DNA of 64,000 nucleotides, taken from positions 292 to 64,291 of the forward strand of contig NZ_JAFKCS010000007.1 of assembly GCF_017255015.1 (NCBI RefSeq), read 5' to 3'. Below the pieces are notes generated by a model that searched no databases, was not told the DNA's origin, and saw only the letters and a list, made by a program, of their open reading frames with translations. The stretch is from Bowmanella yangjiangensis. GTDB taxonomy: Bacteria > Pseudomonadota > Gammaproteobacteria > Enterobacterales > Alteromonadaceae. The translations under genes and the position numbers were made by a program. This document shows, piece by piece, positions 44,838 through 49,329 of the stretch. Numbering within the stretch: position 1 is the first letter of the stretch; each line of letters begins with the position of its first letter.

Positions 44838-47800
44838 ATGAAAACAAAACTTACCCTGCTGTCTGTTGCCATACTGGCGTCGATGCAGGTGACCGCAGCA
44901 CCTGCAGATTCTTTAATTCTGACTGGCGTTATTGATGGGCCACTAACGGGGGGCATTCCCAAGGCCGTCGAGCTGTACGTGGCAAAAGATATTGACGACC
45001 TCAGCCATTGTGGTGTCGGCTTTGCCAATAATGGCGAGGGAACCGATGGTCAGGAATTTACCTTTCCAGCTCAGGCAGTTAGCGCTGGTACATTCTTGTA
45101 TGTGGCCTCTGAGTCGACGGGTTTCACCAGCTTCTTTGGTTTCTCACCTGACTTTACCTCAGGGTTTGCAAGTATTAATGGTGATGATGCCATTGAAGTT
45201 TTTTGTGATGGCGTTGTGGTTGATAGCTTTGGGGATGTGAATGTTGATGGCAGCGGCCAGGCTTGGGATTACCTGGATGGCTGGGCTTATCGCACGGCCA
45301 ATACTGGTCCTGACGGTGCTAACTTTGCGTTGGCTAATTGGACCTTCAGTGGCACTAATGCGCTGGATGGCGTTGCGAATAACACCAGTACCGGTTCTCC
45401 TTTCCCGCTTAAGTCATTTGGTCCGGAAACCGATCCCGGTGATGGGGGCGATACGGGGGGAGATGGCGATATTATTGATGGTAGCGTGTGTTTCAATTGC
45501 CCGGATTTAAGCAAGATAGCCGATGCCGCACTGTTTAATGATGGGCAATATTATGCACCGGTTATTGCGGCTATCGGCGCTGGCAGTACTGCAACGGAAG
45601 TTAAGCCATTACTGACTAACACCATCAGCAACGACCACAGGGTACTGAGCTACGCTGAAGTGTGGACCGCCCTGACAGTTACCGACCAAGACCCACAAAA
45701 CAGCAACAACGTGACGCTACTTTACAAAGGTACGTCACTGGCCAAGTCGAGTAACGGCAGTGGTAGCCAAAGCAGCAACCCGGATAACTGGAACCGCGAA
45801 CATGTTTGGCCTAACAGCCACGGCTTCAATAGCCAGTCTTTTGAGGCTTACACCGATATTCACCATTTACGTCCCACCGATATTTCGGTAAATGCCTCGC
45901 GTGGCAATCTGGATTTTGATACCAGTGACTCCCCACTGGCTGAAGCGCCGCAAAACCGCATCGATAGCGATTCTTTTGAACCAAGAGACGCCGTAAAAGG
46001 TGATGTGGCGAGAATGATGCTCTATATGGACGTTCGCTATGAAGGCGCGGATGTGACGCCTGATCTGCAGTTGGTGGACCGACTCACTGGCCCCGGCGAA
46101 CCTGCTCTTGGCAAGTTATGTCGCTTGGTTGAATGGCACAATGCTGATCCTGTGGACAGTGTTGAGCAGAACCGCAACAACGCCATCTACGAATTCCAGG
46201 GCAACAGAAATCCATTTATTGATCATCCCGAGTGGGTTGAGGTGTTGTACAGCACAGATGAGTGCGACAACGGCGGCGGTGACAATGGTGGTGGCGATCC
46301 GCAAGAGCCAACCCCAGGTGAAGCTGGTTTGATTTTCTCTGAATACGTGGAAGGTGCCGGCGGCAACAATAAAGCTATCGAGCTTTTCAACGCCACAGGC
46401 GCAAGCATTAATCTGTCTGGTTATCAGGTGTTGCTATATGCCAACGGCTCAACTACTCCAGGCAACAAACTGGATCTACAGGGCAGCCTGGCTTCTGGCG
46501 CAACCTATGTAATTGCCAACTCCGGCTCCAATGCTGAAATCCTGGCCGTAGCAGACACTACCTCCACGGTAACTTTCTTTAATGGTAACGATGTACTGGA
46601 GCTACGTAAAAATGGTGAGTTGGTAGATAGCTTCGGTCAGGTTGGTAACAGCAGCAATTTTGCCGTGGATGTGACACTGGTGCGTAAGCCCGAAATTGTC
46701 AGCGGCGATACCGACTCGTCTGACACCTTCGACTATAACCAGGAATGGATAAATCTGGGCACTAACGTGTTTACTAACCTGGGCTCGCATAATGGCGATA
46801 TAGGTGGTGAGCCGGGCAATGATATTGGTCTGTGTGGTGAAGACGCGACCTTGATCAGCGCCATTCAAGGCAGTGGTGCCGCATCGCCCATGGTGGATCA
46901 GAACAAAGTGATCGAAGGTGTCGTCACTAATACTGTGCCAAACCTGCGTGGTTACTTTGTGCAGGAAGAAAGCAGCCAGTGGGATAATGACAATACCACC
47001 TCTGAAGGTATTTTTGTTTACCAGGGCACGGATACTAACCTGCCTGCAGTTGGTAGCCTGGTTCGGGTTAAGGGCAACGTCACTGAGTTCTACACCAGAA
47101 CCCAGTTGGCTGCAGATGTTCAGCCTTTGGATTGCGGCACGGCGGCTGTTGAGCCCGTGACTATTAGTCTGCCCTTTGCCAGCGCCGAGCAGCCAGAGTC
47201 TTTCGAAGGCATGTTAGTTAACTTCAGTCATGTGCTGACGGTGAACGACAACTTCAATCTGGGCCGTTATGGTGATGTAGGCTTGGGCAATGGCCGTAAC
47301 TATATTCCTACCAACCTGCATGCACCTGGCACGCCGGAAGCCATTGCTCTGGCTGACCAGAACAAGCGCAATCGGATTATTCTGGACGACACTATCAGTG
47401 CCCAGAATCCGAACCCTGTGGTTTACCCAACCGGCGGCTTGTCTGCACAAAATACCCTGCGTACCGGAGATACAGTAACAGCCTTACTTGGCAACCTGGA
47501 TTACAGCTTCAATGCCTATCGGGTCGTTCCTGCTCAGGAACCAACCTTTGTGCATTCTAATGCCAGAACTGCATCGCCGGAGCTGACCCGCGGTAATGTC
47601 ACCGTTGCCAGCCTAAACGTATTGAACTTCTTCAACGGTGATGGCCAGGGTAACGGTTTCCCCACTGCCCGCGGTGCCGATGATCTGAACGAGTATCAAC
47701 GCCAATTGGATAAGTTAGTTCAGGCATTGGCAGCTATGGATGCGGATGTGATTGGCCTGATGGAAATTGAAAATGACGGCTACGGCCAAAACAGTGCTAT

Positions 47801-48710
47801 TGCCCAACTGACAGCCGCGCTCAATAGCTATGTGGGCGAGTCGCGTTATGCTTATGTCGATCCCGGCGTAAGCCCGATTGGTAGCGATGAAATTGCTGTA
47901 GGACTACTGTACAAACCCGCGGTGGTTAGCCTGCAAGGAGCAAGCCGTATCAATAACGATGGGGTATTCAGTCGTCCGCCGCTGGCCCAGCGCTTTGCTG
48001 TGGCAGAAAACGGTGCCGAGCTGACCGTGGTGGTGAATCACTTTAAGTCTAAAGGTTGTGGCGGTGCCTCTGGCGCTGACAGCGATCAGGGCGATGGTCA
48101 AAGCTGCTACAACGCCAGACGGGTAGCACAAGCTCAGGCGCTGATCGATTGGTTGGCACAGGATGCCGAACTGAGCGCAAACCCCAATCAACTCGTGATT
48201 GGTGATTTGAATGCCTATGCCAAAGAAGATCCTATCCGCACCTTCACCAGCAGTGGCTTTACCAACCTGGTGGAAACCCATGTGGGCGCCGAAGCCTACT
48301 CATACGCCTTTGGCGGGGAAATGGGGTATCTGGACCACGCTATCGGCAGCGAAGCCTTGGCGGAGCAGGTTGTGGATGTGGTCGAGTGGCATATCAACGC
48401 CGATGAACCTCGTGCGCTGGATTACGACACCCAATACAACCATCCGCAGTTCTATGCGGTCAATCCATACCGTGTATCTGACCATGATCCAGTGCTTGTC
48501 AGCTTAAACCTGCTACCTCCACCTGTACCGGGTGACTTTGATGGTGACGGTGATGTGGATCGTTTGGACTTCACTGGCCTGCTGCGCGCGTTGGCGGCTA
48601 AACAGACCATCGATATGTCTTTTGATTTAAACCAAGACGGTACCGTCAACGTTCGTGACGCACAGTTAATGCGTCAGCTTTGTACACGTACCGGCTGTGC
48701 CACTGAATAA
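44838..48710 (+). CDS. Secreted multidomain nuclease with C-terminal dockerin
   Basis: 1290 residues; AAGGA precedes the ATG. Signal peptide to about 21. Lamin-tail domain (about 25-190). Endonuclease I domain (about 215-475) with NREHVWPNSHGF. Second lamin-tail domain (about 495-640, GLIFSEYVEGAGGNNKAIEL). OB-like region (about 670-890). ExeM/NucH-type exonuclease-endonuclease-phosphatase domain (about 918-1222): SLNVLNFF, GLMEIEND, GDLNAYAKEDPI and SDHDPVLVS. The end holds two calcium-loop repeats, GDFDGDGDVDRLDFTGLL and FDLNQDGTVNVRDAQLMR, which fit a type I dockerin. It should degrade extracellular DNA. The next gene encodes a cohesin-like PEP-CTERM protein. Fusion of two nuclease types in one chain is notable. 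No GlyGly-CTERM tail. Confidence 0.9.
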   Translation: MKTKLTLLSVAILASMQVTAAPADSLILTGVIDGPLTGGIPKAVELYVAKDIDDLSHCGVGFANNGEGTDGQEFTFPAQAVSAGTFLYVASESTGFTSFFGFSPDFTSGFASINGDDAIEVFCDGVVVDSFGDVNVDGSGQAWDYLDGWAYRTANTGPDGANFALANWTFSGTNALDGVANNTSTGSPFPLKSFGPETDPGDGGDTGGDGDIIDGSVCFNCPDLSKIADAALFNDGQYYAPVIAAIGAGSTATEVKPLLTNTISNDHRVLSYAEVWTALTVTDQDPQNSNNVTLLYKGTSLAKSSNGSGSQSSNPDNWNREHVWPNSHGFNSQSFEAYTDIHHLRPTDISVNASRGNLDFDTSDSPLAEAPQNRIDSDSFEPRDAVKGDVARMMLYMDVRYEGADVTPDLQLVDRLTGPGEPALGKLCRLVEWHNADPVDSVEQNRNNAIYEFQGNRNPFIDHPEWVEVLYSTDECDNGGGDNGGGDPQEPTPGEAGLIFSEYVEGAGGNNKAIELFNATGASINLSGYQVLLYANGSTTPGNKLDLQGSLASGATYVIANSGSNAEILAVADTTSTVTFFNGNDVLELRKNGELVDSFGQVGNSSNFAVDVTLVRKPEIVSGDTDSSDTFDYNQEWINLGTNVFTNLGSHNGDIGGEPGNDIGLCGEDATLISAIQGSGAASPMVDQNKVIEGVVTNTVPNLRGYFVQEESSQWDNDNTTSEGIFVYQGTDTNLPAVGSLVRVKGNVTEFYTRTQLAADVQPLDCGTAAVEPVTISLPFASAEQPESFEGMLVNFSHVLTVNDNFNLGRYGDVGLGNGRNYIPTNLHAPGTPEAIALADQNKRNRIILDDTISAQNPNPVVYPTGGLSAQNTLRTGDTVTALLGNLDYSFNAYRVVPAQEPTFVHSNARTASPELTRGNVTVASLNVLNFFNGDGQGNGFPTARGADDLNEYQRQLDKLVQALAAMDADVIGLMEIENDGYGQNSAIAQLTAALNSYVGESRYAYVDPGVSPIGSDEIAVGLLYKPAVVSLQGASRINNDGVFSRPPLAQRFAVAENGAELTVVVNHFKSKGCGGASGADSDQGDGQSCYNARRVAQAQALIDWLAQDAELSANPNQLVIGDLNAYAKEDPIRTFTSSGFTNLVETHVGAEAYSYAFGGEMGYLDHAIGSEALAEQVVDVVEWHINADEPRALDYDTQYNHPQFYAVNPYRVSDHDPVLVSLNLLPPPVPGDFDGDGDVDRLDFTGLLRALAAKQTIDMSFDLNQDGTVNVRDAQLMRQLCTRTGCATE

Positions 48711-48727
48711 TATTTAAGGAGTGAAAA

Positions 48728-49282
48728 ATGAAAAAGTTAATTACCTTATTTGCATTACTGACAAGCATCAACCTACAAGCGGCCATCATTAACGTAGAAA
48801 CTGATCAAGGCAACTACCAGGTGGGCGATGAGGTGACCGTTACAATCACAGGCCAGAATTTGGCGGAGATTACCGCTTTCCAGTTCGATTTGTTGTTTGA
48901 CAATACCGCCTTTGCCTATATGTCAACCTTTAGCTCTGATCTGGGTGATGCGTTCTCCTGGCCTTGGATGCTGACCGACGAAGCCAATGCACTTGGGCGA
49001 GGTCTGGCATTTGTCGATTGGGACTTTATGGGTATCGGTACGGATGCTGTGCTGACCATTGCCAAGTTCAGTTTTACAGCAGTTAAGTCTGGCGTGTTTG
49101 GATTCGGTGTCGGTGGACCTGATGCGGTGTTTGGTGATCTGAACGGCCAGGACGTGCAGGCGAGTTTTGCATCGCTGTCCAGTGTCAATGTGGCCGACGC
49201 CAGTGCAGTGCCAGAGCCAAGTGCATTAGCGCTGATGTTACTGGCGCTGGTTGGTTGGGCCGGTGTTCGCCGCCGTGCTTAA
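48728..49282 (+). CDS. Cohesin-like PEP-CTERM protein
   Basis: 184 residues, AAGGAG site, 17 bp after the nuclease. Signal peptide ends LQAA. Residues about 20-158 look like a cohesin fold: YQVGDEVTVTITGQNLAEI, AFQFDLLFDNTAFAY, ILTI-type strands (VLTIAKFSFTAVKSG). The tail is PEP-CTERM: VPEPSA, hydrophobic helix LALMLLALVGWAG, then VRRRA. An exosortase would place it at the surface. Paired with a dockerin-bearing nuclease it suggests a docking partner. Cohesin assignment is by pattern, not by search. Confidence 0.8.
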   Translation: MKKLITLFALLTSINLQAAIINVETDQGNYQVGDEVTVTITGQNLAEITAFQFDLLFDNTAFAYMSTFSSDLGDAFSWPWMLTDEANALGRGLAFVDWDFMGIGTDAVLTIAKFSFTAVKSGVFGFGVGGPDAVFGDLNGQDVQASFASLSSVNVADASAVPEPSALALMLLALVGWAGVRRRA

Positions 49283-49305
49283 AGTACTGCACTGAAAATA
49301 ATGTA

Positions 49306-49329
49306 AACCCCGCTTAGGCGGGGTTTTTT
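49306..49329 (+). terminator. Rho-independent terminator of the nuclease operon
   Basis: AACCCCGC-TTAG-GCGGGGTT followed by T6. It overlaps the last codons of the convergent YeiB-type gene. Confidence 0.88.

Follow-up and report, generated by a model that had tools for sequence, protein, structure and literature searches.

A dockerin-tagged nuclease and a PEP-CTERM cohesin form a conserved gene pair in Bowmanella yangjiangensis and its relatives, a candidate system for enzyme retention at the cell surface

In cellulosomes, exemplified by the type II cohesins of Acetivibrio cellulolyticus (Protein Data Bank, PDB, entries 1qzn and 3l8q) and by CaCohA2 of Clostridium acetobutylicum (6kgc), the enzymes carry a dockerin with two calcium loops and the anchor carries the cohesin fold. 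We describe the same division between two adjacent genes of Bowmanella yangjiangensis, within a stretch of 64,000 nucleotides of contig NZ_JAFKCS010000007.1 (the window): the first encodes a secreted nuclease that ends in a dockerin, the second a small exported protein with a cohesin-type domain and a PEP-CTERM sorting tail. It departs from the cellulosome in that each such protein has just one cohesin, Pfam found no multi-cohesin scaffoldin in the genome and the host is Gram-negative; the partners comprise nucleases, proteases and enzymes for algal polysaccharides. Anchors with one cohesin are known from Gram-positive bacteria, where ScaE of Ruminococcus flavefaciens is attached by sortase and OlpA and OlpC of Clostridium thermocellum by S-layer modules. 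These wall anchors also join one cohesin to a surface-attachment signal, and the cohesins of OlpA and OlpC (3ul4 and 4dh2) are among the fold matches of the small protein; here, however, the attachment signal is of the PEP-CTERM/exosortase type and the anchor gene lies behind its own enzyme gene. The nuclease core is that of the ExeM nucleases with GlyGly-CTERM (NCBIfam exonuc_ExeM-GG). In Shewanella ExeM with GlyGly-CTERM the sorting tail sits on the enzyme itself, whereas here a dockerin takes that place and the sorting tail is carried by a separate protein.

The papers on PEP-CTERM/EpsH proteins (Haft et al., 2006; PubMed Central, PMC, PMC1569441) and on the floc-former protein PepA (PMC9850573) describe, as here, a signal peptide, a PEP-CTERM tail and an exosortase in an exopolysaccharide locus, but in our pair the cargo is a cohesin and its gene is the second of a two-gene unit. 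The former proposes the exopolysaccharide layer as the destination of PEP-CTERM proteins, calls for experiments and has no occurrence of either dockerin or cohesin; the latter reports that a PEP-CTERM protein influences polymer binding in flocs. According to a further paper (PMC5244752), the single one in the open PMC literature to mention both dockerin and exosortase, cohesins and dockerins occur in all domains of life and their function outside the cellulosome is not known; dockerin and exosortase are treated there separately, in methane-oxidising archaea. The open PMC literature yielded no pairing of dockerin or cohesin with PEP-CTERM, although an earlier mention in the 2009 survey of noncellulosomal modules or the 2012 exosortase paper is possible, and no dockerin together with an extracellular nuclease.

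The pair is probably a two-gene retention system with one enzyme per anchor: at the surface or in the matrix, each dockerin-tagged enzyme would be kept in place by an exosortase-sorted cohesin of its own. The first gene would provide a secreted enzyme, here with Endonuclease I and ExeM/NucH nuclease domains, ending in a calcium-binding dockerin. Both proteins would be exported by signal peptide, the enzyme being secreted separately, and the small protein, once exosortase A had cut off its PEP-CTERM tail, would be essentially a single cohesin, destined for the outer membrane or for the exopolysaccharide layer. In the calcium-rich outside, the enzyme would then dock by its dockerin onto its own partner cohesin, so that one enzyme would be held per anchor, near the cell. 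With somewhat less assurance, we lean towards a general, enzyme-independent plug-and-socket display in marine Gammaproteobacteria, with a private exosortase-sorted lone cohesin for each dockerin enzyme and several differently addressed pairs per cell. If true, cohesins and dockerins outside cellulosomes would have a defined job in Gram-negative bacteria, as the counterpart of the wall anchors with one cohesin that Gram-positive cellulosome producers have. It would also explain how a marine cell may keep its nucleases, proteases and algal-polysaccharide enzymes close by, and would offer a set of small binding pairs that protein display could draw on. A conserved pair with a defined sorting signal and varied enzymes makes a role outside the cellulosome directly testable with two purified domains.

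The nuclease gene (44838-48710) starts with ATG and encodes a secreted protein of 1290 amino acids; the gene for the small protein (48728-49282), on the same plus strand after a gap of 17 base pairs (bp), encodes an exported protein of 184 amino acids. The features of the pair are as follows.

44838..44900, plus strand: nuclease signal peptide, about 21 amino acids, by eye from the translation
45588..46232, plus strand: Endonuclease I domain, nuclease residues 251-465 (PF04231, E value 1.3e-45)
46317..46643, plus strand: lamin tail domain, nuclease residues 494-602 (PF00932, E value 2.2e-19)
46911..48512, plus strand: ExeM/NucH extracellular nuclease domain, residues 692-1225 (NF033681, 648.6 bits against a cut-off of 300; Exo_endo_phos, E value 4.3e-14)
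48528..48674, plus strand: type I dockerin, nuclease residues 1231-1279 (PF00404, Dockerin_1, 32.4 bits against a cut-off of 22.9)
48534-48569, plus strand: dockerin calcium loop 1, DFDGDGDVDRLD
48624-48659, plus strand: dockerin calcium loop 2, DLNQDGTVNVRD
48681..48698, plus strand: Cys-x4-Cys tail after the dockerin, within LCTRTGCATE (a Cys-x4/5-Cys tail is present in 96 of 105 paired dockerins)
48716..48721, plus strand: ribosome binding site AAGGAG for the small-protein gene, by eye
48728..48781, plus strand: signal peptide of the small protein, 18 amino acids, by eye and aligned in 30 relatives
48782..49201, plus strand: predicted lone cohesin domain, residues about 19-158 (PDB profile search, Foldseek, and Pfam Cohesin in 20 of 30 relatives)
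49205..49276, plus strand: PEP-CTERM exosortase sorting tail, residues 160-183 (PF07589, 24.0 bits against 20.7; TIGR02595, 25.8 against 16)
49305..49326, plus strand: terminator-like stem-loop 3' of the small-protein gene, a 9-pair stem followed by a T run

These features bear out what an earlier note, made from the letters of the stretch, had described: a type I dockerin at the nuclease end, two genes 17 bp apart with a terminator behind the second, and a small protein built of signal peptide, cohesin-like domain and PEP-CTERM tail. Terminator-like sites there are not clearly above chance in number (7 observed, 5.2 expected). Both dockerin loops are canonical, with calcium ligands at positions 1, 3, 5 and 12, and a lenient form of the ligand pattern is found in both loops of 103 of the 105 paired dockerins, a set chosen by dockerin profile. 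The nuclease unites Endonuclease I and ExeM/NucH, nuclease domains of different kinds, in one chain.

By profile and predicted fold, the small protein is a cohesin and little else. A profile built from an alignment of 30 of its relatives (A1) matched 32 PDB entries at E values up to 1, the best being 3l8q (E value 3.1e-14). Scaffoldin, scaffolding or anchoring proteins account for 24 of the 32 by name; two are labelled endoglucanase yet titled cohesin complexes (5nrm and 5nrk), four are NagJ entries, among them 2jh2, titled cohesin-like module, and the remaining two are otherwise named (7urp, E value 3.7e-4; 3vmn, a dextranase, E value 0.073). Within A1, Pfam Cohesin was detected in 20 of the 30 relatives (E value ≤0.01, best 1.7e-7) and PEP-CTERM in 18 (E value ≤0.01). 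The comparison with cohesins proposed in the note thus gave matches by sequence profile and also by fold: an AlphaFold2 model computed from seven sequences retrieved 84 PDB chains with Foldseek at E values ≤0.001, and the best 50 of these, judged by title, are all cohesins or cohesin-holding cellulosome complexes. The top row has an E value of 1.6e-7 and template modelling (TM) scores of 0.57/0.60, and a non-cellulosomal cohesin of Archaeoglobus fulgidus is among the matches listed. A narrower alignment of the small protein, with seven members, led to six named loci in the contig search.

The pair is conserved in the family of the window, as the earlier note had anticipated for related genomes. 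Across 196 genomes of the family we found 105 small-protein-like matches in 71 genomes and 143 Dockerin_1 matches in 94. Coordinates alone place a same-strand dockerin less than 1500 bases upstream of 63 of the 105, and no other arrangement of dockerin and cohesin occurs within 1500 bases of these 105 matches. Reading 30 loci revealed an upstream frame with dockerin loops in every one, 13 of them outside the 63 (in three of the 30 the dockerin lies about 270 amino acids before the protein end), and 18 of 29 further small-protein matches also have a dockerin in the upstream frame. Seven matches reach the tail region only (query residue ≥94); their removal leaves 98 cohesin-type matches, of which 94 (63 + 13 + 18) lie directly behind a dockerin gene. 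Such adjacency argues that the pairing is not due to chance, and the seven tail-only matches provide a built-in control: none has an upstream dockerin, as judged with the dockerin profile over 1619-2042 bases before the gene start. Viewed from the enzymes, 34 of the 80 dockerin matches outside the 63 are followed by a frame matching a cohesin-only profile (the profile gave 35 hits, of which one lies upstream and was excluded; among the 34, one belongs to the second dockerin of an already paired gene in G112). Three more were paired by eye (L087, L133 and L134), giving 100 of 143 dockerin matches with a downstream cohesin.

Some loci vary on this layout. In six (L011, L014, L029, L188, L192 and L204) the dockerin stands well before the C-terminus with more sequence behind it, and three of these (L188, L192 and L204) encode M43 metalloproteases. 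Three Dockerin_1 matches on G029 contigs C126 and C128 and G073 contig C460 (L130, L107 and L142), two of them EF-hand-like (L130 and L142), have no downstream cohesin that we could find and are likely false dockerins inside the counts. In Pseudocolwellia sp. AS88 a terminator-like hairpin, seen by eye, separates the dockerin gene from the cohesin gene (L068:6928-7001), so their expression levels may differ in that organism.

The pair is also tied to the exosortase. The small protein has the attributes of a PEP-CTERM substrate: a signal peptide, a PEP motif, a hydrophobic stretch and a basic end. The genome of the window encodes an exosortase (PF09721, E value 4.4e-67) that scores as exosortase A (325.3 bits against a cut-off of 208) and lies inside an XrtA-type exopolysaccharide locus, where nine of ten scanned proteins are above the cut-offs of the XrtA-system models. 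Family-wide, PF09721 is present in 151 of the 196 genomes: in all 71 with a small-protein match, one of which (G051) matches by tail only, against 80 of 125 without (p 5e-11). The dockerin proteins, which carry no PEP-CTERM tail, show the tie as well, with an exosortase in 92 of 94 dockerin genomes and 59 of 102 others. Among the best 30 ExeM loci, drawn from 144 genomes with ExeM, 19 of the 22 from exosortase genomes have a dockerin at the C-terminus and none of the eight from genomes without exosortase does, although one of the eight (L242) fits a loose loop pattern once, through an acidic stretch. Four of these eight end in a short hydrophobic-basic tail and four in other sequence. This split by exosortase status suggests that the same enzyme core seems to have been given different attachment ends.

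A second pair lies on the minus strand of contig C445 of the same genome (G000; L178:2909-5826), where a gene for a 781-amino-acid M9 collagenase-type protein with a dockerin is followed 11 bp on by one for a protein of 186 amino acids. Pfam returned no match to the latter at E values ≤0.001; the A1 profile, which does not contain it, matches it at 1.6e-24. The two dockerin partners of the genome are thus a nuclease and a collagenase-type protease, with no plant cell wall enzyme set. A cellulosome was rejected: Pfam found no multi-cohesin scaffoldin in the genome and one single-domain cohesin at E values ≤10, and the A1 profile brought up a second lone protein of cohesin type.

Partner enzymes were surveyed in 42 dockerin proteins, 40 hand-picked for spread over genera plus the two of this genome. 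Dockerin_1 was detected in 37 of the 42 scans (E value ≤0.001), the other five (L180, L185, L194, L198 and L214) being known from the genome search. Nucleases (Endonuclease I and/or Exo_endo_phos) make up 16 of the 42; the proteases are six M9 collagenase-type proteins, four M43 and two M4 metalloproteases, and the others include four porphyranase-type proteins, two BNR_4 proteins and one glucuronoyl esterase with CBM9. Seven have no clear catalytic family, one of these with an IgGFc-binding domain. Because the partners are so varied, we regard the pair as a general attachment module and not a nuclease system. The docking pair that the earlier note had read beside a nuclease is supported in its dockerin and its cohesin, and extends to other enzymes.

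Dockerins and cohesins also diverge in step. For 105 pairs in 72 genomes (two same-genome duplicates having been dropped from 107), dockerin and cohesin distances correlate across genomes with a coefficient r of 0.57, against at most 0.08 in free shuffles. Swapping partners within genomes, which keeps species history, lowered r to a mean of 0.29 with a maximum of 0.46, and none of 1000 swaps reached 0.57. In the 27 genomes with at least two pairs the same swaps reduced r from 0.56 to a mean of 0.13 (maximum 0.36). The fall in r on within-genome swapping shows that every cohesin has stayed with the lineage of its own dockerin.

Several observations weigh against the retention system proposed above. 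On its own, the small protein of the window scores 22.8 bits with Pfam Cohesin (E value 1.1e-4), 1.3 below the cut-off of 24.1, and its AlphaFold2 model is modest (predicted local distance difference test, pLDDT, 70.3; predicted TM score, pTM, 0.60). A joint fold, computed as a read-through of two adjacent Bowmanella denitrificans genes (L064) with TAA read as Q, reached a pTM of 0.54 with the dockerin at a pLDDT of about 45-65; the two dockerin helices appear in it at low confidence, no confident interface was formed, and the model is uninformative about docking. Matched divergence is no proof of contact, because linked genes share history, and the small protein's tie to the exosortase follows in part from the query, which itself includes a PEP-CTERM tail. 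Four of the 98 cohesin-type matches have no neighbouring dockerin (L153, L165, L171 and L172), and for 43 of the 143 dockerin matches no cohesin was found directly downstream, some of them resembling EF-hand proteins or sitting at contig ends. Pairing is also sparser outside the family. When 274 genomes from across the class were searched, 68 had a match, and we read 14 of 19 new loci, leaving out L233-L237, whose matches start at query position 43 or later. One of the 14 (L219) belongs to the family of the window and is paired; only five of the 12 readable loci outside it are (L221, L223, L225, L229 and L230), seven are without upstream dockerin loops, and a thirteenth (L231) is cut by a contig end. 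Three genomes of genus g10 (G009, G058 and G144) hold orphans of both kinds, the cohesins being L171, L172 and L153 and the dockerins lying in L092, L097, L112, L114, L124 and L125. Finally, the binding of dockerin to cohesin, its calcium need and the placing of the complex at the surface or in the matrix are inferred.

Because orphans of both kinds occur together in genus g10, we keep pooled binding as a rival, in which any surface cohesin would take several dockerin enzymes and the pair would be an expression unit only; the orphans possibly reflect docking in trans or a shared socket. Three other genomes carry a second dockerin gene about 5 kilobases from a pair and without a downstream cohesin of its own (G141 C1, L090; G160 C31, L086; G054 C105, L088), so one cohesin may serve both dockerin proteins there. 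Pooling would not, however, predict the loss of correlation when partners are swapped within genomes, whether across the whole set or in the multi-pair genomes, and we consider it unlikely. Slightly less plausible still is a helper role, in which the exported small protein would assist the folding of its enzyme or inhibit it, binding the dockerin only transiently, while the PEP-CTERM tail would simply hold the small protein at the membrane as export proceeds. Any such dedicated partner would be consistent with the gene adjacency and the matched divergence, but the small protein appears to be a cohesin and little else, and the dockerin genes track the exosortase too, which would be needless for a helper. 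Dockerin-like loops are also found outside docking systems and docking here is predicted, yet a dockerin-like tail acting only as a calcium-stabilised C-terminal cap, beside a cohesin-fold protein with an unrelated matrix role, is very improbable given the adjacency in 94 of 98 cases, the many unrelated partner enzymes and the matched divergence.

Three loci from the class-wide search differ from the one-dockerin, one-cohesin order of the family. In L223 (G332 C14), from another family of the class, two tandem cohesin-type matches lie behind the dockerin gene. In L220 (G259 C185) it is the next gene after the cohesin-type one, on its downstream side, that encodes dockerin-like loops. In L230 (G271 C18) a cohesin-type frame of 476 amino acids, which matches without the tail, lies behind a dockerin gene and has dockerin-like loops of its own at its end.

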